A stretch of DNA of 64,000 nucleotides from Puniceicoccaceae bacterium (GTDB taxonomy: Bacteria > Verrucomicrobiota > Verrucomicrobiia > Opitutales > JAFGAQ01), in NCBI GenBank assembly GCA_028285755.1, contig JANQOQ010000008.1, forward strand, positions 815,399 to 879,398, read 5' to 3'. Made by a program: the position numbers and the translations under genes. How positions within the stretch are numbered: the first letter of the stretch is position 1; every line of letters starts with the position of its first letter. Of this stretch, positions 4,557-22,956 are shown piece after piece. The notes beneath the pieces are model-generated. The model saw only the letters and a list, made by a program, of their open reading frames with translations. It searched no databases and was not told the origin of the DNA.

Positions 4557-7334
4557 ATGGATAAACTAGTTTCAAGCCATTTTCGTAACCTCCCTCCAAA
4601 CGGCAACTTCGGAAACTATAGGTGCAATAGGAGAGGGTTGCGTTTTGTTCTTTTCATGAGCCTGCTTTTGCTCTATGTCGGCATTTGTTGGTATGTCGAT
4701 TTTTCTATATTTCAAAGCAGTTTGCTGATGGCCGGTTCTTTACTACCTGTTGCAACGCTAAAAAAAGAGCAGGATACAGAGGATAATCAATTGATGGGAT
4801 TAGGATCCAGCGGATCCACAATGATTTTCCAGTTTAAGTATGATGAAATCTTCACCTTGCTTGATATTACGTCCAATTGTGAAGCGATTTTAGGGTTTGA
4901 TCGGACTGCCCTTTTGATGGAACCCTCCCTATGGCTCGAACGCATCAATTCGCTCGATTTATTGCGGGTTAAAGAAGAGCTGGAATCCCTGCCCAAGACC
5001 GATCGGTTATCCGTGGAATATCGCTTTAAGCATAAAAAGGGTCATGATGTATGGCTGCGCGATGAGTATGTGCCCAATTATGATGAGCACCATCGCCTGA
5101 TTAACGTCAGCGGTATTCGCTGGGATATTACCAAATGGAAGTTTAAAGAAGAAAAGCTGACACTCAGCGAACGGCAATACCGGGCATGTATTGACTATGC
5201 CCCGGACGGAGTTGCCATCATTGATGGTCAGGGCGAGTTTTGTCATATCAATGAAATGATGCTCAAGATTACCGGCCACAGCTCATATACGCTGGGTCGG
5301 CGCTCTATTATTGATTTGATCAATCTTGACTCGCGAAAGGAAGGTAAGGCCTGGTTTGCCAAGTTGCTCTCCGAAAAACGCGCTAATGGAGAATTTTGCT
5401 GTGAAAAGAGAAACGGAGCGGAACAGTACCTTTCCATGAGTGGTACCGCTTTGGATGATGATCATTTCCTCATTTATGTGAAGGATATCACCGCTGAGCA
5501 TCTCTCGAAAATGCGTATAGAACGCCGGGATCATCTGCTGTTCGCTCTTGTGCAGTCGATGAATAAGTTGCTCGCCTTTGACGATGAGGCCCAAAACGTA
5601 GAGGAGCACATTCAAAAGGACATTCTCGAATATTTGGGGAATGCACTCAGTGTGGATGTGGTATTCCTTTCGATGTGCAAGCGGTTGCAAAATCAAAAAA
5701 CGGAGGGGTTCGAGATTATCGAAACCTGGCAGCATGAAAATGTCACCCAGTGTGAGCTGGAAAAAGGCACGGAATTTACCTGGCAGGGGGGGGCAACCAG
5801 CTGGAGGAATCGCTTTATTACGAACCGATACGTCATTGAGCGCCAGGAAACGGATTTTGCTTCGTTGAACTCTCACCCTCTCATGGTGCAATCGGGCTGT
5901 AACAGCATCTTTATGGTACCCATGCTCGTGAAGAATGAGTTTTGGGGATTTATGGGCTTTGGTAAGAACGACACCGAAAAGAAATGGAAGCTCGTTGACA
6001 GGCGCGTACTTGTCGCAGCCGTCGACAGTATCATGCTTGCTATCCGTAACCGCATTGCCCAACACGAAATAGCCGCAGCAAATATAGAGCTGGAAAAAGC
6101 CATCGAAAAATCCAATCTCATGGCGATAGAGTCTGAGAAAGCCAATCAGGCAAAGAGCGAATTTGTAGCGAACATGAGCCATGAAATTCGCACACCGATG
6201 AACAGTATCCTGGGATTTACAGGGTTGCTGCTCGATTCAAGCTTGTCCCCGGAACACCGGGAATGGTTAAACATCGTGCAGGCCAGCGGCAATTCACTGC
6301 TTAGCCTCGTTAATAATATTCTGGATTTCTCAAAAATTGAAGCAGGTAGCCTTGAAATTGAGCGAAACCCCATGACATTTAAATCCTGCGTTGAAGATGT
6401 TACCGGTATTTTAAGCCATGAGGCTGCCAAAAGAGATCTTCAGCTTACATTTGAGGTAGATGAAAAGGTCCCTCATTCTATTCTGTCTGATGAAGCTCGT
6501 ATCAAAGAAATCCTACTCAATCTTGTCGGTAATGCCGTGAAATTCACGCACGAAGGTTATGTTAAGATACAGGTAGCCGTCCAAGGCAGTAAAAAATTAA
6601 AATCCGGGGATATGTGCTGCATCGAATGCAGTGTTACCGACACCGGTATCGGCATGCAGGAATCTGCACTCCACAATATATTTCAACCCTTTGCGCAGGC
6701 CGATACTTCGACGACTCGTAAATACGGGGGAACGGGTCTGGGTCTGGCGATCTCACGTAGCCTATGTCGCAACCTGGGCGGTGATATTCATGTAGAAAGC
6801 AAATACGGAGAAGGTTCTAAATTTACCTTCACTATTATGGCTGAGGTGTCTGAGGATGTTCGCATTCTAAATGCTCAAGTTCAAAAACCGGTGGTTCGCG
6901 ATTCTCTGGAAATCGATGAGAACAGCAAAATGGGCGAACAGTATCCGCTCAGTATTCTGGTGGCTGAAGACAATAAGACTAATCAAAAGGTATTACGCCT
7001 GATTCTCAAAAAAATTGGTTATTCAGCTGAATTTGTTGAGAATGGAAAGCTCGCTGCACAGGCAGTTACCCGTAACTACTACGACCTTGTTTTTATGGAT
7101 GTTCACATGCCGGAAATGGATGGCTATGAAGCCACCCGTACTATCCGGACATATGAAAATGAGCATTCAGATGTTAAAAACCATTATATCATAGCGCTTA
7201 CTGCGCATGCTATGAAAGGGGATAAGGAGAAATGCCTGGCATCCGGTATGGACGACTATCTTACGAAGCCCGTTAATCTGAAAGCTTTGAAAGTTGCTCT
7301 AAAAAAATGCATATCCCATCAGGGTATTCACTGA
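4557..7334 (+). CDS. Hybrid sensor histidine kinase (TM-PAS-PAS-GAF-HisKA-HATPase-REC)
   Basis: A 925-residue kinase with one or two membrane segments near residues 25-65, two PAS/PAC domains (about 90-200 and 205-320), a GAF domain (about 330-510), a HisKA domain with SHEIRTPMN (phosphoacceptor His542), an HATPase domain (N box [11 protein letters not shown]1 box DTGIGM, G2 GGTGLGLAI), and a C-terminal receiver ([10 protein letters not shown], phosphoacceptor Asp848; Lys in LTKPVN). No output domain or HPt is present, so the receiver either regulates the kinase or passes phosphate to an unlinked HPt. The gene ends about 155 bp upstream of the polyketide synthase on the same strand; a regulatory link is possible but not shown. 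Confidence 0.92.
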
Positions 7335-7489: not shown

Positions 7490-10400
7490 ATGAAGGCAAT
7501 TGCAGTAATTGGAATGGGCTGCCATTTTCCGGGTGGAGCGGTAAATCCTAAGCGCTATTGGCAAATGCTAATGAGCGGTCAGGATGCGATTATTGACGTG
7601 CCTTCAAATCGTTGGGACTACCGGCGCTTTTATGATGAAAATCCTGAAAAAGCGGGAAAAACCTACATGCGACGTGGAGGCTTTTTGCAGGAGGATATTT
7701 ACCAGTTTGACCCTTTATTCTTTGGGATTTCTCCAAAGGAAGCACAGGAGATGGATCCCCAACAGTGCCTCTTGCTGGAAACCACTTGGGAAGCGATTGA
7801 AGATGCCGGCCTGATTAGGGATGAGTTGAAAGGTAGCCCTACTGGGGTATTTATCGGGGGGTTCTGCCTCGATAATATGTTGCTTCGAGTCAATACACTG
7901 AATCGTGAGATTACGGGTATCCATACTGCGACCAGCTGTACGATGACACTCCTTTCGAATCGTATATCCCACGTGTTTGATTTGCAGGGCCCCAGCTTTA
8001 CGGTGGATACGGCATGCTCCTCTTCGTTGGTAGCGTTGAATTCTGCGTGTATGAGCCTCGAAAAAGGCGAGTGTGATACTGCTATCGTGGGTGGAGTGAA
8101 TATCATGCTCAAGCCGGATAACCCGATCATGATGAGTAAAGCCCGGCTGCTCTCACAGCACGGGCATAGTATGGCGTTTGACGAACGCGCAGCCGGGTAT
8201 AGCCGGGGCGAAGGTGCAGGGATTGTCATTGTGAAGCCACTGGAACAGGCAATAGAGGCTGGGGATCGCATACACGCGGTGATTCGTGCCACCGGTGCGA
8301 ACCAGGACGGTCACACTGCGGGCATATCGTTACCTAATGGAGATGCGCAATACGAGCTCATCAACCGCTTGTATGAACAATGCTTAGTCGACCCATCTGA
8401 TGTCGTTTATGTCGAGGCGCATGGGACAGGCACCAAAGCCGGGGACCCGATCGAAATTAACGCACTGAATCGTATGTTTGGAAAATCTCCCCGTTCTGAA
8501 AAACTGTGGGTAGGTTCCGTGAAATCCAATATGGGGCATCTGGAAGCGGCTGCGGGTATTGCTGGGTTGATCAAGGCCATACTTGTACTCAAGCACCAGA
8601 AGATTCCCAAAAACCTGCATTTTGAAAATGCAAATCCCCAAATCGACTTTCAAAACATGCAGCTGCAGATACCCGCGCAGCCCATTGATGTACATCGTGA
8701 GTCCTCAAAATCAATTTATGCATCAGTAAACTCTTTTGGGTATGGAGGTACAAATGCCCATGTGATTATCGAATCTGCCGACATACTTGAGAAGAGCTCT
8801 ACTAACACAGAATTACAGTGGCCTATTAACGTGCCGTTATCTGCAAATGATGTAAGCTCCCTGCGGCAATACGCGGGTAAATTGGCATTTAAGCTTACAC
8901 TTACAAAAACGGATGCGGATTTTGCAGATATTGTGCATACATTGATTTACCGACGCTCGCATCTGCGCGCCCGGGCATGGATCAAGGCAAGTTCGTTGGA
9001 TGACTTTAAACAAAAACTGAAGAAATTCAGTGTCGGTGAAAACATACCGGGCGTATATACAGCTGAAAGTCCCGAAAACCGGCAGAAACCGGTTTTTGTG
9101 TTTACCGGAATGGGCCCTCAATGGTGGCGCATGGGGCGCGACTTTTTTGAAAATGAACCGCAGGCCCGCGAGTTTCTGGAACAGGTGGACAGACACTTTA
9201 CTGAGATATCTGGATGGTCGATCCGGGATGAGCTCTTTAAGCCTGAAGGTGAAAGCCGTATGGCTGATACGGAAGTCGCCCAACCTGCAAATTTTGTTTT
9301 GCAGGCGGCATTGGCCCAATGGATGGTCTCCCAGGGGATTGAACCGGCGGCTATTGTCGGTCACAGTGTAGGCGAGGTGAGTGCGGCCTATATTTCCGGA
9401 GCGCTCAGCCTGGCGGATGCGATTCGGGTCAGTTACCATCGTAGTCGATTACAGCAAACGACCGCAGGTATGGGAGTAATGCTTGCTGTGGGCCTGCCCG
9501 CAGAAGAGATTGCCGCATGGATAGCGGACTATGGTGGAATCTCCGTCGCCGCGATTAACAGCCCCCAGTCTGTTACCCTCGCCGGAGATGAGGCAGCCTT
9601 GAACGCATTGGCTGAAAGACTCGACCAAGCGGAGATTTTTCAAAGATTCCTGCGGGTGAATATACCCTATCACAGTCACGTGATGGATACGATTCGGGAG
9701 GGTGTTTTTGAGTCTCTGGCAGCATTGAAACCTCATCAGGCAAGCTATCGGTTATATTCTACGGTTCACGCCAAACCTATGGATGGAGAGCATTGGAATG
9801 CAGGCTATTGGTGGCAGAATGTCCGTCAGCCCGTTCAATTCGCAAAGACCATCAGTCAAATGATGAAGGATGGTTATGATACATTCATTGAAGTGGGGCC
9901 TCATCCAGTATTAAGGACCAGCATTATCGAATGTGCCGAATCAATCGACCAATCGATCTACATCCAGCAAACGCTTAACCGCAAGGAAGATGAAAAAGAG
10001 CGCCTGGATGCCATCGCTGCCGAATATCATGTAAATGGCGGTAGTTTGCAGTGGGAATCCCTGTTCCCCAAGACTATCGGCAACTTCACGGACTTACCTC
10101 TCTATGCCTGGAATCATAAGCGCCACTGGATCGAGACCGATGAATCCACAATGGATCGTTTTGGTCTCAAAGGGCATGTCTATTTAAATGAAAAACTGAG
10201 TGGCCCACTTCCCGCCTGGCAGGTGGAAATCAATAAATATTTCTTTCCCTACATTGAGGATCACCGGGTGCTGGATAAGCCGGTTTTTCCAGGAGCAGGC
10301 TATGTCGAAGCGGGTATCGCCTATGCACGGGAAGAGCTGAAACTGCAAAACTTCGAAATCCGGGACTTAACTTTGCATTCCATGCTCACAGCAGAGCTTG

Positions 10401-13400
10401 CACAACCGCAAAAACTATCGGTCCAAGCCGGAGCGGATGGCAAATCCTACTCGGTCAATAGTATCATTAGGACTGAATCGGATGAGTGGGAGAAGCACGC
10501 TGAGGGTCATGTTTTAGAGATAGCTTCGAATAAACCCATGAAGCGAGCCCCGCTGGATTCAATTCAAAACGATTATTCGGAAGAGGTCGATATGCAGGCA
10601 TTCTATAAGCAACTGGCAAAGAGAGGTTTGGTTTACCGGCAAAGTTATCAGACTGTCAGTCATTTACGTACGAATAGTGATGGCGGGTTTTGGGCTGAAT
10701 TTGAGGATCCTTTTGCAGGTAAGGATTCCGAAAAAACCTATTACGTTAATCCGCGATTATTCGATGGAGCAATTCATTCAGTGCTGGTACATGTCCCTGG
10801 CAAAGAGGCTTACGTACCGGTACGTATGGGTAATGTACGCTATTACGGTGATAATCGGATACAGCCCAAATTTGTTAAAGGATGGGTGGAATGGGTGTCG
10901 ATTGACGTCGTTCGCGCAGATTTGACGCTCATCGCTGACAATGGCGATATACTGGTTGAAGTTACGGATGCACTATTTCAAAGGCTGCATCTCGCGGGAG
11001 TGAAAGATGCGGATGAATACCTTTATGAAGAGAATTGGGCTTCCTTCAATCTGCTTCCTAATGAAGCGCAGGAACCTCCAAGTCAAAACTGGCTGGTCAT
11101 TGACTCTTCTGAGAATCATGAAATCTGGAAGGCTGGACTTAAGGGGGCATCGATCGCTAAGATTGATTGTATATCCGAGCCGGATATTGAAAGCGTTTTT
11201 GAAAATACGAATGCGTGGTCGCATTGCCTTTGGCGAATACCCGCTTTGGAGCAAGAGGATTCAACAGAAAAATTGATGGATACCATTGCCAATCGTGCAG
11301 CCCAGTATTCACGGTTGGTTAAAGCATTGCAAGCACACCGCGAAGAACCTCTATATATGACGATTGTGGCCTCAAAATCGTTATCCGTAAATGATGAAGC
11401 CATTGAAAATTTACTACCCAACGCCTATTTGGGTTTAACAAATGTTGCTGCCAATGAAAATGCTCAACGGCTCGCTACCCGATATCTAGATATTGATGTT
11501 AAGGTTGACCATGCACTTATTCAGAAATTGGTGCCGTTGCTGCATTCCAATCACACCGGGGAGCTTATAGCTTTGCGTGGAGATCAATTTCTTGCGAAGC
11601 ATTTTTCAAGGAGCGCAAATGAAGGCAATGAAGCGGAATCGGTTGATAGTCCCGTCTTGAGAACCCTTAAAACGGATGAACGGGCGCAGCTAAATATACA
11701 GACCAGTTCGTCAGAACTCACCTTTGATCTCGTTGAAAAAAACGAATATTTAAAAGCACATGAAGTGGAAATCCAGGTTAATGCCACCGCTTTGACATAC
11801 AAAGATCTCCTTAAGGTGCGGGGGCGTATGCAGGCACTGGCCGTTGTGGATTCTTACCTGGGAGATGCGATCGGTATGGAGGTCACCGGAATAGTGAGCC
11901 GCACGGGTGCTGAAGTGACCCGTGTTAAAGTGGGAGACCGTGTATTGGCAGGTACGGGCAATACTCTCTCCAACTTTGCCGTTGCAGAGGAGTCCTTTGT
12001 TTTTCCACTTCCGAAGTCCATTGACGATGTTGGAGGGTTGATTTACACGAATTTTCTGACTGCCCAATACAGCCTACTGCATTTGGCATCCCTTAAGTCA
12101 GGGGATACGATACTGATTCACAGTGCAACTGGCGGAGTGGGCCTTGCGGCTATAGAAATCGCGAAATATGTGGGAGCTACAATTTTTGCGACCGCCAGCA
12201 GTGATTCCAAACGGGATTACTTGCGTGAACTGGGAGTGGATTTTGTCTTTGACTCCACTCAGTTGGACTTTGCCTCCGAAATATTAAAACACGTTGAGAC
12301 CGGTATCGATGTGGTGCTTAATTCACTGCCGGGCGAGTTTCTTGCGCGAAGCCTTGAAATAACAGCCCCGGGCGGCCGTTTCATTGAGTTGGGCAAAACG
12401 GACATACTGACCGGAGGCTCTCTGCCATTGAGTTTGTTTAATCGAAATATCGCATTTCATGCAGTGGATTTTGACCGCATGCATATTGAGCACCCGGCAC
12501 TCATTCAGGAGCTTGCAGCTGAAGTCTTAAAGGCCTTTGAAAGTGGAGACTATAAACCCGTTCGTACGGCTGAATACGCGATCGCGGAGGTCAATCAATG
12601 CCTGGTTGATATGGAAAAGCGTAACCTGATAGGTAAAGCCGTTCTAAGTATTGGGGAGTCTGCGGTATTTCCGTTGAGCGAAAATGCAGATAAATCTGCT
12701 TCAGACGATTTTATTGATACTCAAGCTGACGCGGCTTATCTCATTACAGGTGGAACAGGCGGTTTCGGGCTCGAAACTGCAAAATGGCTGGCGGGTATGG
12801 GCGCGCAGAACTTATTGCTGATGAGCCGCTCAGGGACTAGCCCGGAAGCAGAAGCATGGATTTCATTGCAAGAGAATCAAACGGCTAACATTCGGCTAAT
12901 TAAAGGCGACATCTGCGATTCCAGTGAACTTTCAAGAATCGCGCAAGGATTGAAAAACGATGGATTCAAAGTTGCCGGCATATTCCACGCTGCTGGCGTG
13001 CTTGATGATAAACGCATTGAAGCAATGGATTTCAGTAGTTATCAACGGGTGATCCGCCCCAAAGTAATGGGGGCTCTGAATCTCATTGAAGTGTTTCGGG
13101 ATTCGCCGCCTGATTTTATGGTTTGCTATTCGTCCGTCTCCAGCTTGGTGGGTAATCAGTATCAGGCTAACTATGCGGCCGCGAATGCACTCTTGGATGG
13201 CCTTGCAATGGCTGACCAACACGGAGGAACTCATATAGTGAGTGTCAACTGGGGCGCAATCGCAGATGCAGGGATGGTTGCTCGCGATAAGAATGTAGAA
13301 CAGATTTTAGCACAGTCTGGGATCATGCCCTTGGAGCTTTCCAGGGCTTTCGACGCAATGAAGCATGCACTCTCACAGCGCAAAAGTAGCCTGATAGCTG

Positions 13401-13798
13401 CTGAGGTGGATTGGCAGAAGTGGGCTCAGGCAAACCAGGGAATGGCCATACATCATTACTTTCGCGATTTCCTTAACAAAATAGCCCAAACCAATGAGAT
13501 TTCGGATAATGAAACCCACGTGTTTATCACGGAGTTATTAAGTAAACCATCGGAAGAGAGACTTGCTTATATTGAGGAATCAATTATCTTATTGGTTGAA
13601 ACAACTTTAAAACTTGAGTCTGGGAGTATAAAACCTCAACAAAATCTGGGAGATTTTGGTATAGATTCAATAACTGCACTCGAATTATCCGTTCTGTTTA
13701 AAAAAGATACGAGCATTACACTTACCGCTCAAGAATTAGCCAGGAATGCGACTCCTGAGAGTCTTTCCAAAAAAATTCTTAAGCGCCTGAACCTTTAA
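7490..13798 (+). CDS. Type I highly reducing polyketide synthase, single module KS-AT-DH-ER-KR-ACP
   Basis: This 2102-residue protein carries one complete reducing module. KS (about 1-430): Cys176 in DTACSSS, His311 in EAHGTGT and His350 in NMGHLEAAAG. AT (about 530-850): Ser626 in GHSVG and YHSH at 727-730, a signature I associate with iterative malonyl-using enzymes. DH (about 880-1160): His925 in HRVLDKPVFP, where the usual Gly of HxxxGxxxxP is Asp, and Asp1092/His1096. ER (about 1400-1710): NADPH motif HSATGGVG at 1544. KR (about 1745-1930): GGTGGFG, Ser1882, Tyr1895 and an LDD motif that marks B-type stereochemistry. ACP: Ser2060 in GIDSI. There is no thioesterase, docking or methyltransferase domain, so iterative use and release by another enzyme are inferred. 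The ATG at 7490 was preferred; an in-frame TTG at 7475 would add five residues. A PhcB-like methyltransferase follows 26 bp downstream. Confidence 0.95.
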   Translation: MKAIAVIGMGCHFPGGAVNPKRYWQMLMSGQDAIIDVPSNRWDYRRFYDENPEKAGKTYMRRGGFLQEDIYQFDPLFFGISPKEAQEMDPQQCLLLETTWEAIEDAGLIRDELKGSPTGVFIGGFCLDNMLLRVNTLNREITGIHTATSCTMTLLSNRISHVFDLQGPSFTVDTACSSSLVALNSACMSLEKGECDTAIVGGVNIMLKPDNPIMMSKARLLSQHGHSMAFDERAAGYSRGEGAGIVIVKPLEQAIEAGDRIHAVIRATGANQDGHTAGISLPNGDAQYELINRLYEQCLVDPSDVVYVEAHGTGTKAGDPIEINALNRMFGKSPRSEKLWVGSVKSNMGHLEAAAGIAGLIKAILVLKHQKIPKNLHFENANPQIDFQNMQLQIPAQPIDVHRESSKSIYASVNSFGYGGTNAHVIIESADILEKSSTNTELQWPINVPLSANDVSSLRQYAGKLAFKLTLTKTDADFADIVHTLIYRRSHLRARAWIKASSLDDFKQKLKKFSVGENIPGVYTAESPENRQKPVFVFTGMGPQWWRMGRDFFENEPQAREFLEQVDRHFTEISGWSIRDELFKPEGESRMADTEVAQPANFVLQAALAQWMVSQGIEPAAIVGHSVGEVSAAYISGALSLADAIRVSYHRSRLQQTTAGMGVMLAVGLPAEEIAAWIADYGGISVAAINSPQSVTLAGDEAALNALAERLDQAEIFQRFLRVNIPYHSHVMDTIREGVFESLAALKPHQASYRLYSTVHAKPMDGEHWNAGYWWQNVRQPVQFAKTISQMMKDGYDTFIEVGPHPVLRTSIIECAESIDQSIYIQQTLNRKEDEKERLDAIAAEYHVNGGSLQWESLFPKTIGNFTDLPLYAWNHKRHWIETDESTMDRFGLKGHVYLNEKLSGPLPAWQVEINKYFFPYIEDHRVLDKPVFPGAGYVEAGIAYAREELKLQNFEIRDLTLHSMLTAELAQPQKLSVQAGADGKSYSVNSIIRTESDEWEKHAEGHVLEIASNKPMKRAPLDSIQNDYSEEVDMQAFYKQLAKRGLVYRQSYQTVSHLRTNSDGGFWAEFEDPFAGKDSEKTYYVNPRLFDGAIHSVLVHVPGKEAYVPVRMGNVRYYGDNRIQPKFVKGWVEWVSIDVVRADLTLIADNGDILVEVTDALFQRLHLAGVKDADEYLYEENWASFNLLPNEAQEPPSQNWLVIDSSENHEIWKAGLKGASIAKIDCISEPDIESVFENTNAWSHCLWRIPALEQEDSTEKLMDTIANRAAQYSRLVKALQAHREEPLYMTIVASKSLSVNDEAIENLLPNAYLGLTNVAANENAQRLATRYLDIDVKVDHALIQKLVPLLHSNHTGELIALRGDQFLAKHFSRSANEGNEAESVDSPVLRTLKTDERAQLNIQTSSSELTFDLVEKNEYLKAHEVEIQVNATALTYKDLLKVRGRMQALAVVDSYLGDAIGMEVTGIVSRTGAEVTRVKVGDRVLAGTGNTLSNFAVAEESFVFPLPKSIDDVGGLIYTNFLTAQYSLLHLASLKSGDTILIHSATGGVGLAAIEIAKYVGATIFATASSDSKRDYLRELGVDFVFDSTQLDFASEILKHVETGIDVVLNSLPGEFLARSLEITAPGGRFIELGKTDILTGGSLPLSLFNRNIAFHAVDFDRMHIEHPALIQELAAEVLKAFESGDYKPVRTAEYAIAEVNQCLVDMEKRNLIGKAVLSIGESAVFPLSENADKSASDDFIDTQADAAYLITGGTGGFGLETAKWLAGMGAQNLLLMSRSGTSPEAEAWISLQENQTANIRLIKGDICDSSELSRIAQGLKNDGFKVAGIFHAAGVLDDKRIEAMDFSSYQRVIRPKVMGALNLIEVFRDSPPDFMVCYSSVSSLVGNQYQANYAAANALLDGLAMADQHGGTHIVSVNWGAIADAGMVARDKNVEQILAQSGIMPLELSRAFDAMKHALSQRKSSLIAAEVDWQKWAQANQGMAIHHYFRDFLNKIAQTNEISDNETHVFITELLSKPSEERLAYIEESIILLVETTLKLESGSIKPQQNLGDFGIDSITALELSVLFKKDTSITLTAQELARNATPESLSKKILKRLNL

Positions 13799-13824
13799 AC
13801 GACTGACTAAAACCATAACACACT

Positions 13825-15225
13825 GTGAATTCACTATCGGGTATCGACAGCATACTGCTATTTCAAAATAGCCAAGGTAAAGAAGGTCGCGGAACCTTGA
13901 TTCATATTACGCGTACGACGGTTGTCTTTGAGGTTTACAATCCCTATTCCATTATCCAGATCAGTGAGGTACTCCAGAAAGTGCGTGTTGTACGAGGGGA
14001 GCGTGTGATCTATGATGGGAAGGCAGTCGTCAGCAATATCGTGATGACCGGGTTAATGTTGATCGTATCAGCAACACTTGTGGATGCATGGAGCGACCTT
14101 TCAGAAATTGGTCCCGGTCGTGGGCTCAATACAGAAGCGAAGCGATTTGTAGACGATTGGGAAAACAGTAACCGCCTCTACCCGGGTTATCAGGTGGTGG
14201 TTAACTCCATTAGCAGTTTTCTTTCGGAGATTAGCCGGTGGTTGGAGGAGGCTGAAGTGGGCTCCGAGTTATCAGCCAATACGAATGGGCGTTTTGATGA
14301 AAAACTGTTTGAAGAATTTTACGAGGAGGTCAAGGAGCCGCTCAGCCCGAAGGTAACCGAGCTATTCGGTAGTTTTGAGGAAGTAGCCTCTAAAATTAGC
14401 CCCGAAGAGCTCAATGCCCATAAAGCATTTGCCAGGCGGGAATTGCATCCGGTTACCATGTGTTCGCCCTTCGTACACCGAACCTATGTCAAACCTCTCG
14501 GGTATGCCGGTGACTATGAAATGGTCAATATGATGCTCTACGAGTCGGATGCCAAGTGCCGTAGCATCTATGCGAAGTTGGTAGATGATTTCCATGTGGG
14601 GACATCCGCTCCCGAAGCACATCGCAATCGCATCGATTTACTGGTAGAGCGCCTCGAAAACGAAACCGTTCGCGCCATACAACAGGAGCGACCATTGGTG
14701 GCACTTAATGTCGGTTGTGGACCGGCCTCTGAGGTGCAACGCTTTCTCAAGAAGAGCGAATTATCCGATCACCTCATGCTCACCTTGATGGATTTTAATG
14801 ATGAAACCATCGCTTATTCCAAGCAGAGGACTTCGGCTGCCAGAGAGGATGCCGGGAGAGAGGCTACGCTTAACTATGTTCAAAAATCCGTAGATGATCT
14901 GCTCAGGGAAAGTCAGGTGGATGAGTTGGTTGAAGATCCGAAGTATGACTTTGTCTATTGTGCGGGACTCTTTGATTATTTTTCGGATCGCGTCTGCAAA
15001 AAACTGGTAGCATTGTTTTACAGCTGGGTGAAACCAGGTGGGCTGGTTTCGGTAACCAATGTTCATAAGTCGAATCCCAATCGTAATCAGATGGAACATT
15101 TGCTCGAATGGCACCTGATTTATCGGGATGATAAGGACATGCTTGCTTTGGCTCCTGAAGACACGCAGACGCAATTGATACAAGATGATACAGGAGTAAA
15201 TGTATTTCTAGATATTCGTAAATGA
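13825..15225 (+). CDS. PhcB-like SAM-dependent methyltransferase (candidate signal-ester synthase)
   Basis: The 466-residue protein begins with GTG. Its first ~95 residues are beta-rich and PilZ-like in pattern but without an evident RxxxR c-di-GMP motif. The middle contains KPLGYAGDYEMVNMM (about 215-230), which I recognise from proteins annotated as extracellular factor 3-hydroxypalmitate methyl ester biosynthesis (PhcB). The class I methyltransferase domain (about 280-466) has motif I NVGCGP at 295-300 and an acidic strand-2 region LMDFND. In Ralstonia, PhcB makes methyl 3-hydroxy fatty acid quorum signals. Next genes encode a PhcS/PhcR-like and a PhcQ-like protein, and the upstream gene is a polyketide synthase without a release domain, so methyl-ester release of its product is a fair inference. 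Substrate is unproven. Confidence 0.8.
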   Translation: MNSLSGIDSILLFQNSQGKEGRGTLIHITRTTVVFEVYNPYSIIQISEVLQKVRVVRGERVIYDGKAVVSNIVMTGLMLIVSATLVDAWSDLSEIGPGRGLNTEAKRFVDDWENSNRLYPGYQVVVNSISSFLSEISRWLEEAEVGSELSANTNGRFDEKLFEEFYEEVKEPLSPKVTELFGSFEEVASKISPEELNAHKAFARRELHPVTMCSPFVHRTYVKPLGYAGDYEMVNMMLYESDAKCRSIYAKLVDDFHVGTSAPEAHRNRIDLLVERLENETVRAIQQERPLVALNVGCGPASEVQRFLKKSELSDHLMLTLMDFNDETIAYSKQRTSAAREDAGREATLNYVQKSVDDLLRESQVDELVEDPKYDFVYCAGLFDYFSDRVCKKLVALFYSWVKPGGLVSVTNVHKSNPNRNQMEHLLEWHLIYRDDKDMLALAPEDTQTQLIQDDTGVNVFLDIRK

Positions 15226-15234
15226 TCCACGAAT

Positions 15235-17889
15235 ATGGCAAACTTGGTTAACAGCGTGATTACAACTCAAGAGCAGGCCTATTTAAAGGAAGACCGGCAG
15301 GTCAGGCAGTCGCGCTTGAAATACGCGGCCCTGATTGGAATAGTGGCAATGCCCACAGGGTTTGGGCTGGAGCTGGCGGTTTATCCTGAGATGTTTATCG
15401 AGTTTATGGGGGTACGTCTTTTCACTACCTTGCTTTTGTTCATATTATATGGGATTGTTAGGACGGATTTTGGTTATAAACATGCGATAAAATTAGGTTT
15501 TGTCTGGGCATTTATTATTACCACTTCTCTGGATTACATGATCTTTCGGACAGAAGGTGTGGCATCCCCTTATTATGCTGGGCTTAATCTGGTTATTCTG
15601 GGTTTGGGGGTCTTATTACCATGGTCGTTTCGAGAGACCCTTGCAGTTACGTTTGGAATATACCTTGTGTATCTGGTTGCATGTGCATCCCATTGGTTGG
15701 TGACTGCCATGCCTATATTGCCCAAGGACCTATTCTTGAGTTCTTTCTTTATTCTGGTTACCGGGGGTATAAGCGCAGTCTCGAGTATGGTTACCTCGCG
15801 TGCCAGGCGGGCAGACTTTTACCTCAAGCAGGAACTGGACGACCAAAACAGGAAATTGCAGGAACTGGATCAACTCAAATCCCAATTCTTTGCGAATATT
15901 AGTCATGAGCTGAGGACTCCTTTAACGTTGGTCTACTCTCCGGTAGAGCAGATTTTACAGAAATATGAATCGCTCCCGGGTCCCGTGCATGAGCATCTCG
16001 TTACCGTTCACCGTAATGCCCTGAGACTTCTAAAGCTCATTAACGAAATTTTAGATGTGATGAAGCTGGATCAGGGTATGATGCAGCTCAATAAGCAGCC
16101 GATTAAGTTGGACGAGTATATCGGTGGACTCGTCAATTCCGTCCAGCACCTGGGATCGGCTAAGCAGCTTAAATTTAAACTGGGTGGCTCCAACCCCGAT
16201 CTTGATATCATTGCAGATCGGGATCGTATGGAAAAGGTGATCCTGAATCTCCTGACCAACGCGATCAAATTTAGCCACCCGGGGGGAGTTATACAGGTTA
16301 AATGGTTTGAAGCATCGGGCGGAGTGCGCATCGATGTGGTTGATCAAGGGGTGGGTATTCCCGAAGACAAGGCGGAACGTGTCTTTGATCGCTTCTCTCA
16401 GGTGGATACTTCAAGCACGCGCAAGGCGCAGGGGGTAGGTCTTGGGCTGGCACTTGCCAAAGAAATTACAGAATTGCACGGAGGAAATTTGACGTTTGAA
16501 AGTGAATATGGAAAGGGAACCACTTTCTCCATATTACTTCCGCAAACAGAAATTGAGTCTCCTGTAACGGAATCTTCAGAATTGAAGGAAGAGACAACAG
16601 GAGTTGCGGGTGCAGAGACTTCTCCGGAACCCTACACGGAAGCCTTTAAAGCAGCGGATCGTTTTATGCCGTCGGAAGACCATCACATGGGGGATGAATT
16701 ACCCGAAGTGGGTAAAACCGGAAAGAGTGTACTTGTAGTGGATGACGAACCGGATATGCGGCGATTCATCGTTCAGAGCCTCAAACAGGATTTCCGCATC
16801 ATACAGGCCATTGATGGGGTGGAAGCCTTAAAGCAGGTGAAAAGCCAAAAACCGGATCTGGTCGTGTTGGACTGGATGTTGCCTGAAATGGACGGTATTG
16901 AAGTTTGTAAACAGATTAAGGCGGATGAAACGCTACTGGATACGAAGGTAATCATGCTCACGGCGCGCTCCGATGAACAGTCGAAGCTGGAGGGCCTTGA
17001 AAGTGGAGCGGATGATTTTCTTACCAAACCGTTCAGCTCACTTGAGCTGATTGCACGCATTCGGGTGGCATTGAATTTAAGGGAATTGCAGGATGCGTTG
17101 AGAGACCGTAATGTGGAACTGCAGGAGACTCTGGCAGAACTTAAGGAGGCAGAATCCAAATTGGTACATCATGAGAAAATGGCAGCTATGGGTGAGCTTT
17201 CGGCCGGTATATTACATGAAATCAATAATCCCCTGAACGCAATGGTCACGGCATTGAGCTTCGGCTTAAGATCCAAATTGGTAGAAGATGAAAAAGTTAT
17301 GGATCTCTTGACGGATTTAAAGGAAGGTGCGGATCGCATCCAGGGGATTACAACCGACCTTCGCACCTTTGCACATCCGGAGACCTTGAATAACCTGGAA
17401 TCATTTTCGCTGGGAGAACTCTTTGAATCGACTATTAATATGCTTTCCCATAAAGCTCAGGGGGTTGATATTAAAGCAACGGAAGGCACAGACCTGATTG
17501 TGGAGGCTGCGAAAGGCCAGATTTCTCAGGTATTGGTGAATCTCGTTAGTAATGCCATTGATGCGTTGAATAGCTGTGATGATCCTCAAAATCCCAGTGT
17601 GATCATGTATGGAAAGCAGTCCGGCAGCGATGAAAATGCGATTGAGGTGGGAGTAATTGATAATGCCGATGGCATGCCGGACGATGTGTTGAACCGAATA
17701 TTTGAGCCTTTTTATACAACGAAGGATATCAGTGAAGGAATGGGGCTTGGGCTCAGCATTAGCCATACTATTGTTAAAACACATTCCAGTGAGCTAAAAG
17801 TAGAAACTGAACTGGGCAAAGGAAGCCGATTTTATTTTGAACTGCCCGCCTACATGACCTCCAGGCGCGAAACTTTAATTGAAAATTAA
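15235..17889 (+). CDS. Six-TM sensor kinase fused to receiver and second kinase (PhcS-PhcR-like fusion)
   Basis: An 884-residue protein. Six membrane segments (about 25-190) have little loop sequence, as in sensors of membrane-soluble signals such as PhcS and LqsS. Then come a short coiled coil, HisKA with SHELRTPLT (His224), HATPase (NLLTNAIKFS; DQGVGIPED; GVGLGLALA), an acidic linker (about 440-490), a receiver (LDWMLPEMDG, Asp546; LTKPFS), a coiled coil, a second HisKA of the GELSAGILHEINNPL type (His661) and a second HATPase (NLVSNAIDAL; GMGLGLSIS). The first half resembles PhcS and the second half PhcR, which in Ralstonia are separate proteins. It starts 9 bp after the methyltransferase and ends 5 bp before the response regulator, so the three are co-transcribed. 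No output DNA-binding domain is seen. Confidence 0.9.
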   Translation: MANLVNSVITTQEQAYLKEDRQVRQSRLKYAALIGIVAMPTGFGLELAVYPEMFIEFMGVRLFTTLLLFILYGIVRTDFGYKHAIKLGFVWAFIITTSLDYMIFRTEGVASPYYAGLNLVILGLGVLLPWSFRETLAVTFGIYLVYLVACASHWLVTAMPILPKDLFLSSFFILVTGGISAVSSMVTSRARRADFYLKQELDDQNRKLQELDQLKSQFFANISHELRTPLTLVYSPVEQILQKYESLPGPVHEHLVTVHRNALRLLKLINEILDVMKLDQGMMQLNKQPIKLDEYIGGLVNSVQHLGSAKQLKFKLGGSNPDLDIIADRDRMEKVILNLLTNAIKFSHPGGVIQVKWFEASGGVRIDVVDQGVGIPEDKAERVFDRFSQVDTSSTRKAQGVGLGLALAKEITELHGGNLTFESEYGKGTTFSILLPQTEIESPVTESSELKEETTGVAGAETSPEPYTEAFKAADRFMPSEDHHMGDELPEVGKTGKSVLVVDDEPDMRRFIVQSLKQDFRIIQAIDGVEALKQVKSQKPDLVVLDWMLPEMDGIEVCKQIKADETLLDTKVIMLTARSDEQSKLEGLESGADDFLTKPFSSLELIARIRVALNLRELQDALRDRNVELQETLAELKEAESKLVHHEKMAAMGELSAGILHEINNPLNAMVTALSFGLRSKLVEDEKVMDLLTDLKEGADRIQGITTDLRTFAHPETLNNLESFSLGELFESTINMLSHKAQGVDIKATEGTDLIVEAAKGQISQVLVNLVSNAIDALNSCDDPQNPSVIMYGKQSGSDENAIEVGVIDNADGMPDDVLNRIFEPFYTTKDISEGMGLGLSISHTIVKTHSSELKVETELGKGSRFYFELPAYMTSRRETLIEN

Positions 17890-17894
17890 ATACC

Positions 17895-19103
17895 ATGGAT
17901 TCAAAACCAAAATATAAAATACTCTACGTAGACGACGAGCAAATGTCGCTTAAATATTTTGCTCAGGCCTTGGAAGATAAATTTGAAATCATTACCGCAT
18001 CGAGTGCTGATGAAGGCCTTGGCAAACTGCAAAAGCATGGCCATGAAATTGGAGTATTGGTCACTGACCAGCGGATGCCGGGTAAACTCGGTGTTGAATT
18101 ATTAAAGCAGGCGCGTGCCTACTACCCGAATATAGTCAGGATTTTAACGACTGCCCATTCGGATCTCAATTCAGCAATCCAGGCTACCAATAAGGGTGCG
18201 ATTTTTCACTACATATCCAAACCCTGGAATTTGGATGAGCTGGAATCCGTCATGCGCAGGGCGATGAATTTCTTTAACCTCAAAATTGAACGGGATGGGT
18301 TGTTGCGTGAAAAAATATCAACCATCCAGCGCACTGCATTGATCAATAAAATTGAGAGTTTACTGGTATGGGCACAAACCAATAAAAACAGTGTTCAAAA
18401 TGGGTCGACTGCCGTAAATTATATTGTTGATAGTATTCAGGTGGATCCGGGCGCTGTTGTTGATTACAACCAGTTTTACGGGCAGGATTATGGTCGGTGG
18501 AATAGTAACTACACCAATCTGAATCTCGTTGAATCATTGACAGATTCTGAGGTCATTAAAGGTATTGATCAGTTGGCACCCGGTGAAGGGTTTGAGCCGG
18601 CTGCATGCTTGAGCAATTTAAGGGAGGCATTTCCCCAAATTATCTGTGCGATTACGACTCTACCCAATGAATCCTGCGAAAATTCGGAAATCGGGTTACG
18701 ACTTTGCACCGCGATTAAGCAAATGGTTAATTGCTGGATGCCAGAAGCCGACAAATCGCGTATTCTCGAAGTAGGGGAGACTGCAGATACTCGGGGTGGG
18801 CCGAAGTGGTTCACCATGCGCTGTAGCTCATTGGGTGAAAAGTCACCCGAATCAACAAAGGCGAATGCCGATCAGTATTGTGGGAACAATTTTGATGCTA
18901 CCAAAGAGCTTGCCTGGTTTAACATGGCCTTCCTCATTGCCCATTGTGGGGGAGAGGTGGAAGTCGATGAATTATCCAATGATCATTTTTCATTGAGACT
19001 GCGTTTTGATAATCCCGGTATTAAGTATTATTCAGCAACACAAGTAGTCGACCGTTTGCTCAATCGCATTGAGAATTGGGTAGTCGGTGAAGTGGCTGCA
19101 TAG
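17895..19103 (+). CDS. PhcQ-like response regulator
   Basis: A 402-residue protein with an N-terminal receiver (about 1-125): acidic pair in YVDDEQ, phosphoacceptor Asp58 in TDQRMPG, Thr in LTTAHSD and Lys in SKPWN. The remaining ~270 residues contain no HTH, GGDEF, HD or ATPase motif that I recognise; they are predicted mixed alpha/beta with a short helix linker after the receiver. In the Ralstonia phc locus PhcQ is a receiver protein that acts between the sensor kinase and the PhcA regulator, and the order methyltransferase-kinase-regulator is the same here. It starts 5 bp after the kinase gene. The downstream transcription factor it would control is not in the window. Confidence 0.82.
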   Translation: MDSKPKYKILYVDDEQMSLKYFAQALEDKFEIITASSADEGLGKLQKHGHEIGVLVTDQRMPGKLGVELLKQARAYYPNIVRILTTAHSDLNSAIQATNKGAIFHYISKPWNLDELESVMRRAMNFFNLKIERDGLLREKISTIQRTALINKIESLLVWAQTNKNSVQNGSTAVNYIVDSIQVDPGAVVDYNQFYGQDYGRWNSNYTNLNLVESLTDSEVIKGIDQLAPGEGFEPAACLSNLREAFPQIICAITTLPNESCENSEIGLRLCTAIKQMVNCWMPEADKSRILEVGETADTRGGPKWFTMRCSSLGEKSPESTKANADQYCGNNFDATKELAWFNMAFLIAHCGGEVEVDELSNDHFSLRLRFDNPGIKYYSATQVVDRLLNRIENWVVGEVAA

Positions 19104-20499: not shown

Positions 20500-21339
20500 A
20501 TGACGCAACCAAAGTATCCTACGCCCGAAAAGGCCTACAAAAATCTGCAATTCCTAAATAGTCACGATGCGCGCAGCATACGTGTGCTCTGTGAGCTTAT
20601 CGAACCTGAAACCCGCTTTGAGGAGCAATGCGTGCAGCACACGATTGTTTTCTTTGGTTCGGCAAGATCGGTAGACTGCGATCGGGCCCCTGCAGCGATA
20701 GACGCGCTCAAAAAACGGCTGCAACTCACGAGGGACGAGGCTGAAATCAAAATGCTGAAGCGCCGCATCAACCATGTGGAGCGTTTTTCAAGCTATTATG
20801 AAAAGGCGGAAGAGCTTGCTGAAAAAATGACTCGCTGGTCGTTGACGATTCCCGAGGAAAAGGATCGCTTTTATGTATGCTCCGGAGGCGGGCCCGGAAT
20901 GATGGAGGCTGCCAATAAGGGAGCTAAGCTTGCGGGCGGTAAGTCGATCGGCTTGGGTATCAGTTTGCCCTTTGAGCAACACTTGAACGCGTATTGCGAT
21001 GAAGAGCTCAGCTTTGAGTTTCACTACTTCTTCATGCGTAAATATTGGTTCCTCTATCTCGCAAAAGCTTTGGTCGCATTCCCTGGGGGATTCGGGACCA
21101 TGGATGAGCTATTTGAGGTGTTGACATTAATTCAGACGCGCAAGGCGCTTAAGAAATTACCGATCGTGCTGTTTGGTTCCGAATTCTGGAATGATATTAT
21201 GAACTTCGATAACTTCCTGAAATGGGGTGTCATCTCTGAGGATGACCTGCGCCTCTTCAAAATCATGGACGATGTGGATGAAGTTGCGGATTATCTGAAG
21301 TATGAGCTCAAGAGCAACCCGCTGGACACCTCTTTTTAA
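20500..21339 (+). CDS. LOG-family protein (TIGR00730-like nucleotide phosphoribohydrolase)
   Basis: The 279-residue Rossmann-fold protein shows both family motifs: SGGGPGMMEAANKGA (about 126-140) and PGGFGTMDELFEVLT (about 192-206). LOG proteins cleave ribose-phosphate from cytokinin nucleotides or other nucleoside 5'-monophosphates; the older label is possible lysine decarboxylase. It is longer than the ~190-residue plant-type enzymes, carrying about 85 extra N-terminal residues with a helical hairpin around 65-100, as in the larger bacterial LOG subgroup. The stop overlaps the stop of the convergent phosphopantetheinyl transferase by 4 bp. Confidence 0.85.
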   Translation: MTQPKYPTPEKAYKNLQFLNSHDARSIRVLCELIEPETRFEEQCVQHTIVFFGSARSVDCDRAPAAIDALKKRLQLTRDEAEIKMLKRRINHVERFSSYYEKAEELAEKMTRWSLTIPEEKDRFYVCSGGGPGMMEAANKGAKLAGGKSIGLGISLPFEQHLNAYCDEELSFEFHYFFMRKYWFLYLAKALVAFPGGFGTMDELFEVLTLIQTRKALKKLPIVLFGSEFWNDIMNFDNFLKWGVISEDDLRLFKIMDDVDEVADYLKYELKSNPLDTSF

Positions 21340-21986
21340 CAAACTTGGCTACAGGTTAGCACATGGTCCTGCCAGAAGGTATACCTGCCAATATGATTGT
21401 CGACCGCATCCGTTTTATCTGAGCTGAAGGTATAACTGCTATTTTCAGGATTGATACTGATCTCCACATCCTGGAAGCCAAGCCAATCTCTGGTTTCTCC
21501 AAATTGAAATTTGAAGAACGCTTCCTTTGCGCTGAATGTAATCGCCATCAATTGTGTGGGTGAGATTTTTAAACTTTTTGCCAACTCAATGATATTTTTA
21601 AGCTCTTCTTTGCTCGTTAATTTGTTCCAGAGGCTTGGTTTTACGCGTTCAAATTGCTCCAGATCGACGCCGATTGCGTTTGAGCTTTTATGAGCTGCGA
21701 CAGTGCAGATGCCTCTGCAGTGGGTGATGCTGCCATTCATGCCCTCAGGCCAGAGGGGCTGCCCATCTGAACCCGTTAACACCGGTCCGGAATAGGACAG
21801 GAGCTGCCGGATAATCGATCGGGATGTGCTGTATTCGTGCTGTTTCAGGGAGCTCCGTTCTGCAATATAGAGTCTTTCCTCGTGATGAATCTCATCGGTA
21901 TAATCGGAAATGAAACGAGTCTCCACAAAGCAGCCTTCAGGCAGGATGCTTTTCCAGAGATTATCCAGTTCCTGATAATTATGCAT
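21336..21986 (-). CDS. 4'-phosphopantetheinyl transferase (EntD/Sfp-like)
   Basis: A 216-residue enzyme of the Sfp/EntD group: GSITHCRG (about 85-92), IGVDLEQ (about 105-111; Mg2+-binding Asp-x-Glu) and FSAKEAFFKFQF (about 146-157). It transfers the phosphopantetheine arm of CoA to the serine of carrier proteins. The ATG at 21984-21986 overlaps the stop of the upstream dehydrogenase (ATGcaTAA), so translation is coupled; the longer frame to 22091 would lie inside that gene and was rejected. It is a natural candidate to activate the ACP of the polyketide synthase 8 kb away, although it could also serve fatty acid synthase ACP. Confidence 0.88.
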   Translation of the reverse strand: MHNYQELDNLWKSILPEGCFVETRFISDYTDEIHHEERLYIAERSSLKQHEYSTSRSIIRQLLSYSGPVLTGSDGQPLWPEGMNGSITHCRGICTVAAHKSSNAIGVDLEQFERVKPSLWNKLTSKEELKNIIELAKSLKISPTQLMAITFSAKEAFFKFQFGETRDWLGFQDVEISINPENSSYTFSSDKTDAVDNHIGRYTFWQDHVLTCSQVC

Positions 21987-22956
21987 CAACCTTACCAATC
22001 TCCTTGAGCCATTGGATCGTAGGCTCCAGCGTTTCGCGTGCATTTCTAAATGATGTGCCAAGATCGTTGGTCGCATTTTCATTCCCTGCATACCAGTAGT
22101 GCATCGCGTATCGATACTTGGTTACGCTCTGGCTGAGACCTGAGATCCGAACGACTGAAAAAACCGCATTGTAGAGATGCAGTATGAAATGGGGAATGGT
22201 TATAATCGGCTTCTTTTTGCCGTGAATAGTGAGTGATAAATGGGCCAGCTGCTTAAGGCTGAGCATCTCCCCGGCAAGATGATATCGCTTGCCTGTTTTT
22301 CCATTTTCTAGCGCACTTACGATTCCGTTGGCTACATCATCGACATGTGCGATGGTGATACCTCCGTTGCAAACCAGACACATTGGCCCTTTGCAAAAGT
22401 CGATTATCGATCCGGCAGTTACTAAGTTATGGTCTTCGGGGCCATAGGTTTCTCCCGGATTCACCATGACAATATTCGCTCCTTTTTCCTGTACTGTCTT
22501 CAGGCAATGTTGCTCAGCTTCATTTTTCAATGCTGCGTAGCGATACCGTTTGGGATTCAGATTAAATGGCGAAGCTTCGTCTCGTTTATCATCAGGTCTT
22601 TTGCTCGCTCCAAACGTGGCTGCACTACTCACATAAACCATTCGCAGTTTCTTTTCGGCGACGGTATCTGCTAATCGTTGAGTAGCGCCCACTATGACCT
22701 CCTTCAATTCTGGAGAATCCAGTTTGTCCCAGCTGGAGAGTGAAGCTGCGTGTATAACGGCATCACACCCCTGAAGGGCCTCTTGCCATTGGATAGTCCT
22801 GATATCACCCACGTATTCCTCAAATTCCACCCCTTCCAATGGGCTTCGGTTACTGCCCTGCCTCAAAACGAGCCGCAGGGCATGCCCCTGGTCATACAGT
22901 AGTTGGACGACCCGGGATCCAATAAACCCATTACCTCCGGTGACGAGTATTTTCAT
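21979..22956 (-). CDS. NAD-dependent epimerase/dehydratase, extended SDR family
   Basis: The 325-residue protein has an N-terminal Rossmann motif GGNGFIGSRV (residues 7-16), a conserved HAAS at about 70, the catalytic Ser in VSSAATFG and the YxxxK pair in YAALK (about 140). The C-terminal 130 residues form the substrate-binding part, with a hydrophobic stretch around 255-275. It resembles dihydroflavonol-4-reductase/HpnA-type and 3-beta-hydroxysteroid-type reductases that act on lipid or polyketide-like hydroxy ketones. The coupled downstream phosphopantetheinyl transferase suggests a role in acyl or polyketide metabolism; the substrate is unknown. It follows the phosphoesterase gene by 5 bp. 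Confidence 0.85.
   Translation of the reverse strand: MKILVTGGNGFIGSRVVQLLYDQGHALRLVLRQGSNRSPLEGVEFEEYVGDIRTIQWQEALQGCDAVIHAASLSSWDKLDSPELKEVIVGATQRLADTVAEKKLRMVYVSSAATFGASKRPDDKRDEASPFNLNPKRYRYAALKNEAEQHCLKTVQEKGANIVMVNPGETYGPEDHNLVTAGSIIDFCKGPMCLVCNGGITIAHVDDVANGIVSALENGKTGKRYHLAGEMLSLKQLAHLSLTIHGKKKPIITIPHFILHLYNAVFSVVRISGLSQSVTKYRYAMHYWYAGNENATNDLGTSFRNARETLEPTIQWLKEIGKVDA

Follow-up and report, generated by a model that had tools for sequence, protein, structure and literature searches.

Why should a polyketide synthase (PKS) head an operon whose remaining genes resemble a quorum-sensing locus? Phc signalling has been described in plant-pathogenic Ralstonia and their kin, with a chain drawn from fatty acid synthesis; in Ralstonia the signal is methyl 3-hydroxymyristate or methyl 3-hydroxypalmitate. 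The question is raised by a 64,000-nucleotide stretch of DNA (the window) from a Puniceicoccaceae bacterium with a genome of 4.25 Mb and with kin in the Opitutales group of the Verrucomicrobiota. In the preliminary description, a PKS gene is followed by genes for a methyltransferase (MT), a kinase and a regulator, the successive gaps being 26, 9 and 5 bp. The four open reading frames on the + strand (7475/7490–13798, 13825–15225, 15235–17889 and 17895–19103) reproduce this layout exactly, and they encode a PKS of 2,102 aa, an MT of 466 aa, a hybrid kinase of 884 aa and a response regulator of 402 aa. The features are located as follows.

7490–13798, + strand: single-module reducing type I PKS (Pfam; catalytic motifs in 12 relatives; best solved relative mycocerosic acid synthase)
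7493–13771, + strand, PKS domains (Pfam): KS 7493–8776, AT 9092–10039, DH 10211–10990, ER 11744–12649 (ADH_zinc_N), KR 12731–13264, ACP 13583–13771 (PP-binding)
13825–15225, + strand: PhcB-family SAM methyltransferase, 466 aa, GTG start (43% identity to Cupriavidus PhcB; tree; 28/28 core residues)
13849–14079, + strand: predicted N-terminal PilZ-fold domain of the MT, residues 9–85, containing R22 (AlphaFold2; fold search, Z 10.8 to 2gjg; motif scan)
14479–15222, + strand: class I SAM-methyltransferase domain of the MT, residues 219–466 (AlphaFold2; fold search)
15235–17889, + strand: hybrid sensor kinase (Pfam; domain-wise comparison with Cupriavidus PhcS; H-boxes; hydropathy)
15325–17850, + strand, kinase parts (Pfam, PhcS comparison, H-boxes, hydropathy): membrane sensor about 15325–15792, HK1 15877–16548, receiver 16729–17064, PhcS-type HK2 17161–17850 (H661)
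17895–19103, + strand: PhcQ-like response regulator with a receiver and a C-terminal part (Pfam; alignment; 44–52% to Burkholderiales PhcQ receivers)
21336–22091, − strand: 4'-phosphopantetheinyl transferase, possible ACP activator, outside the conserved cassette (Pfam)

A PAS-rich hybrid kinase at 4557–7334, on the same strand, ends 155 bp before the PKS and was rejected as an operon member because its place is not conserved in relatives. No 4'-phosphopantetheinyl transferase is found near the PKS in three related loci (L058, L064 and L092). Predicted sigma-70 promoters and terminators in the window are no more numerous than in shuffled sequences.

The named genomes were scanned with an alignment of the MT, which yielded 80 loci. 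In 12 of these, a PKS lies directly upstream of the MT, with the kinase and the PhcQ-like gene always next, and three further PKS-linked loci (G039, G757 and G801) bring the total to 16 genomes, including that of the window. The gaps measured in 11 relatives are 17–60 bp between PKS and MT, about 0 between MT and kinase, and −8 to 69 bp between kinase and regulator; flanking genes are not shared among the loci, near-identical pairs excepted. Chance is ruled out because order, close spacing and strand recur in 16 genomes with unrelated flanks, and the locus is not a single curiosity. The same gene order is thus found in relatives, as the preliminary description had suggested looking for, and the partner of the MT in close relatives is regularly a synthase. 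All carriers belong to the Verrucomicrobiota apart from a single MAG with a Gammaproteobacteria label (L060); the trees group it inside the Opitutales, and it may be mis-binned. Cultured bacteria are among the carriers, namely Puniceicoccaceae K14 (L092) and Spartobacteria LR76 (L073). A synthase of the window's KS clade is present in 10 of 273 Opitutales genomes, and phc genes come next in all eight that have readable downstream DNA. No MT was found in G784 and G795, two fragmented assemblies with broken contigs in which a KS of the PKS-linked clade is present. At another locus (L197), a long open frame without any further Pfam domain is fused to the MT, probably by read-through.

The Pfam domain order of the window PKS is KS-AT-DH-ER-KR-ACP, with no thioesterase domain, and the cassette encodes no thioesterase or other release enzyme. 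The earlier account of a single-module reducing synthase without a release domain is therefore correct, and from the single module we infer that it would be used iteratively. The catalytic motifs of KS, AT, DH, KR and ACP are intact in the window and in 11 relatives. The nucleotide motif of the ER, which the window PKS retains, is eroded in five relatives, given which the products probably differ between lineages. The AT substrate motif is YHSH, by which malonyl and methylmalonyl are not told apart. The KR had been called B-type, with an R-hydroxy product; it does carry the LDD mark of this type, but the predicted product is weak, since the DH and ER motifs are intact as well. An intact DH-ER-KR set by default yields a saturated chain. 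A 3-hydroxy product is not the default prediction for this reason, and the window PKS would be expected to make a reduced chain; only an early stop in the final cycle would change this, and a 3-hydroxy ester is one, weakly predicted, option.

Among solved structures, the window PKS comes closest to mycocerosic acid synthase, an enzyme of envelope-lipid synthesis that likewise lacks a thioesterase. The window enzyme shares with this and similar single-module reducing PKSs the KS-AT-DH-ER-KR-ACP order and a length of about 2,100 aa. In contrast to mycocerosic acid synthase, to which its similarity is only moderate, it lies in an operon with a sensor and an MT and belongs to a distinct KS clade that, within the genomes searched, is found only in Verrucomicrobiota. 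A PKS family of other Opitutales (L234, L235, L236 and L237), whose open frames reach about 4,000 aa, is sister to the phc-linked KS clade and has no phc genes nearby.

The gene order in Cupriavidus is MT, PhcS, PhcR, PhcQ, the same as that of the published phc operon, in which an MT (PhcB) is followed by a membrane kinase (PhcS), a receiver-kinase (PhcR) and a receiver (PhcQ) (PMC8578825). Proteins from Cupriavidus (genus from 16S) and Paraburkholderia were used as PhcB references, standing in for R. solanacearum PhcB. The window MT aligns with Cupriavidus PhcB from end to end at 42–44% identity, and each of 60 Cupriavidus genomes contains a match, nearly always full-length and in this range. 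When 100 MTs are placed in a tree, those linked to a PKS form one clade (SH-aLRT 99), which an inner group (99) unites with Burkholderiales PhcB. The PKS-linked clade is adjoined by PKS-free MTs from Planctomycetota, Myxococcota and Proteobacteria, including Burkholderiales PhcB. The MT thus lies inside the PhcB family, as proposed, and a position outside it is rejected by this tree. The window MT retains all 28 core residues; MTs that were not part of the core-defining alignment keep 27–28 of 28, except for two deep branches (22 and 24) and the decayed proteins described below.

In the KS tree, one clade (100/100) likewise takes in the linked synthases together with the KS domains of G784 and G795, and separate recruitment of the window PKS is unsupported since all linked KS domains fall within it. 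Because the linked MTs and the linked KS domains each form one clade, and PhcB relatives elsewhere are PKS-free, a single acquisition explains the presence of the synthase most simply, and it was probably gained once. The position of the window within the PKS-linked clade is uncertain, as the MT and KS trees disagree and both are weakly supported here.

In a Pedosphaera MAG (L083:13655–19437), an unrelated PKS, encoded on the opposite strand, has its end about 100 bp past a phc-type kinase, which is a possible second, independent pairing. On an Enterobacter ludwigii plasmid (L054:12673–15810), the terminal domain of a PKS is about 26% identical to the catalytic half of the MT; judged by sequence, a distant relative of the window MT sits there at the end of an assembly line.

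The AlphaFold2 model of the window MT consists of a class I MT with an additional N-terminal beta-barrel. When the barrel was folded alone, the first 22 matches listed in the fold search were all PilZ-containing chains, with Z-scores of 8.6–10.8, and Foldseek also gave PilZ matches (E 1e-3 to 1e-2); Pfam finds no PilZ match in the MT N-terminus. An N-terminal PilZ fold in PhcB-family MTs, as predicted by these models, is new here, and a search of open-licence papers found none that reports such a domain for PhcB. PilZ folds are mostly found in intracellular regulation. Since the canonical c-di-GMP motif pair, RxxxR and [DN]xSxxG, is present in none of the 100 MTs, canonical c-di-GMP binding by this domain is rejected, and c-di-GMP binding is not implied. 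The R22C change in Ralstonia PhcB, which arose in evolved strains, lowers signal output (PMC6989110). R22 falls within the PilZ-fold domain, and the same residue is present in the window and Cupriavidus proteins.

The kinase had been described as a six-transmembrane protein. Its hydropathy, with about five to six hydrophobic segments between residues 31 and 186, is compatible with six transmembrane helices; it is not, however, a plain PhcS, since its order is membrane part, kinase, receiver, kinase. Compared with Burkholderiales PhcS, the membrane part is 27–34% identical (E about 1e-18) and HK2 is 34–38% identical (E about 1e-50), with an HK1-receiver block inserted between these two PhcS-like regions. 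Read in this way, the kinase is a PhcS with a second kinase and a receiver inserted, an arrangement that is new here. The H-box histidine of HK2, H661 (LHEINNP), corresponds to H233 of Cupriavidus PhcS (LHEVNNP); in Ralstonia PhcS, the phosphorylated residue is H230 (PMC11960443).

A separate phcR (receiver-kinase) gene is absent from the window operon, and because of this absence the cassette is a variant and not phcBSRQ proper. In most PKS-linked relatives, one or two extra receiver or receiver-kinase genes follow. The last gene of the window operon was rightly called PhcQ-like: its product is a receiver protein in which no DNA-binding domain was found, and the receiver is 44–52% identical to Burkholderiales PhcQ receivers. 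Its C-terminal part corresponds to a vestigial kinase in relatives; PhcQ-like proteins of other lineages show a kinase ATPase domain that is unrecognisable in the window protein.

Genera without the PKS allow a comparison. Genus g155 (G794 and G773), from the window's own family, has the MT, kinase and PhcQ-like genes, with no PKS next to the MT locus and with unrelated genes upstream on an unbroken contig. In the MT and kinase trees, G794 stands beside the window inside the PKS-linked group, so the PKS was most likely lost in g155; in the kinase tree, the PKS-linked loci split into two groups. The G794 MT (assembly 77% complete) retains 21 of 28 core residues, with an end branch of 1.57 versus 0.35 for the window, and its kinase keeps the H-boxes, the receiver Asp and the G-boxes, with a branch of 1.0 versus 0.78. 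In genus g154 (G752 and G783), which shares the window's chromosomal place with the same downstream genes (UDG, ORF194 and LOG), the MT keeps 7–8 of 28 core residues, and PKS and kinase are absent. At two loci of this genus (L253:1644–4253 and L254), a degenerate MT and a PhcQ-like gene remain without kinase or PKS. MT decay is thus seen in draft assemblies of two genera of one family. Decay after loss of the PKS argues for an MT that acts on the polyketide, with the PKS supplying its substrate, and a decayed MT beside an intact kinase fits a receiver that outlasted production. With its kinase intact, g155 may only listen.

The reading that we favour, and consider fairly probable, is a self-contained phc-type signalling cassette that took in its own chain builder. 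With KS, AT, DH, ER, KR and ACP motifs intact, the PKS would elongate and reduce an acyl chain on its ACP. A SAM-dependent MT requires a free acid, and the acid would be released by an enzyme encoded outside the cassette. The MT, by its family and its decay upon loss of the PKS, would turn this acid into a methyl ester, which would be sensed by the PhcS-derived membrane kinase, and the kinase architecture suggests that phosphate would flow via its own receiver, directly to the PhcQ-like regulator, or both. The interpretation given in the preliminary description is partly supported. Of the three outcomes named there as refuting it, two were checked, an MT outside the PhcB clade and a partner in relatives that is never a synthase, and neither was found; the interpretation is plausible and is strengthened by the decay of the MT.

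Alternatively, as in Ralstonia, fatty acid synthesis could still supply the phc genes, which would make and sense a 3-hydroxy fatty acid methyl ester; the PKS would then be a quorum-controlled output, making a lipid or metabolite and placed in the operon for regulation. Many PhcB relatives are intact without a PKS, so the MT family needs none, and in Ralstonia the Phc system is known to place a polyketide product under quorum control (PMC9197120). However, an MT fed by the fatty acid pool should survive the loss of the PKS, yet within the window's family the MT decays and the kinase persists; moreover, the PKS is the only biosynthetic gene retained alongside the signalling genes in relatives. 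This alternative is rather unlikely. A lipid homeostasis switch, in which the PKS product is a membrane or envelope lipid that the MT modifies and whose level the kinase reads within the same cell, would suit the kinship with mycocerosic acid synthase and the PilZ fold of the MT, but it is quite improbable, as the set of MT, PhcS-type sensor and PhcQ serves a diffusible signal in Burkholderiales (PMC8578825, PMC11960443) and the cassette travels without envelope-lipid genes.

With phcBSRQ of Ralstonia and Cupriavidus the cassette shares a full-length PhcB homologue (43%), a PhcS-type sensor-kinase, a PhcQ-type receiver protein and the gene order; it differs in being headed by a PKS, in the extra HK1-receiver block of its kinase and, in the window, in the missing phcR. 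The idea of a type I PKS product controlling the behaviour of its producer is shared with Clostridium acetobutylicum, whose polyketides regulate the organism that makes them (PMC5686105); the abstract of that work names no phc-type set of MT, kinase and regulator. Nothing relevant on a pairing of phc genes with a PKS, or on release by a terminal methyltransferase, was found in the open-licence literature, in keeping with the earlier remark that no described case was known.

The PKS-headed cassette would be a new form of phc-type signalling, and its carriers probably produce their own dedicated signal molecule. It is conceivable, though we propose it only tentatively, that the cassette defines a new class of autoinducer: a polyketide methyl ester, built for the purpose, which one self-contained cassette both makes and senses across the Verrucomicrobiota. 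Lineage-specific products, with the ER kept or lost, would then act as private dialects, the MT would be gated by its PilZ-fold domain, and sister genera without production would keep the receiver and eavesdrop. The PilZ fold heading PhcB-family enzymes, as the site of the Ralstonia R22 change, is a point at which control of Phc signal synthesis could be tested. The phc-type set of synthase and sensor spans several phyla, and in the Verrucomicrobiota, for which no described signal was found, it has its own chain builder. For these bacteria, the cassette offers a concrete candidate class of molecule, a candidate receptor and targets for knockouts.
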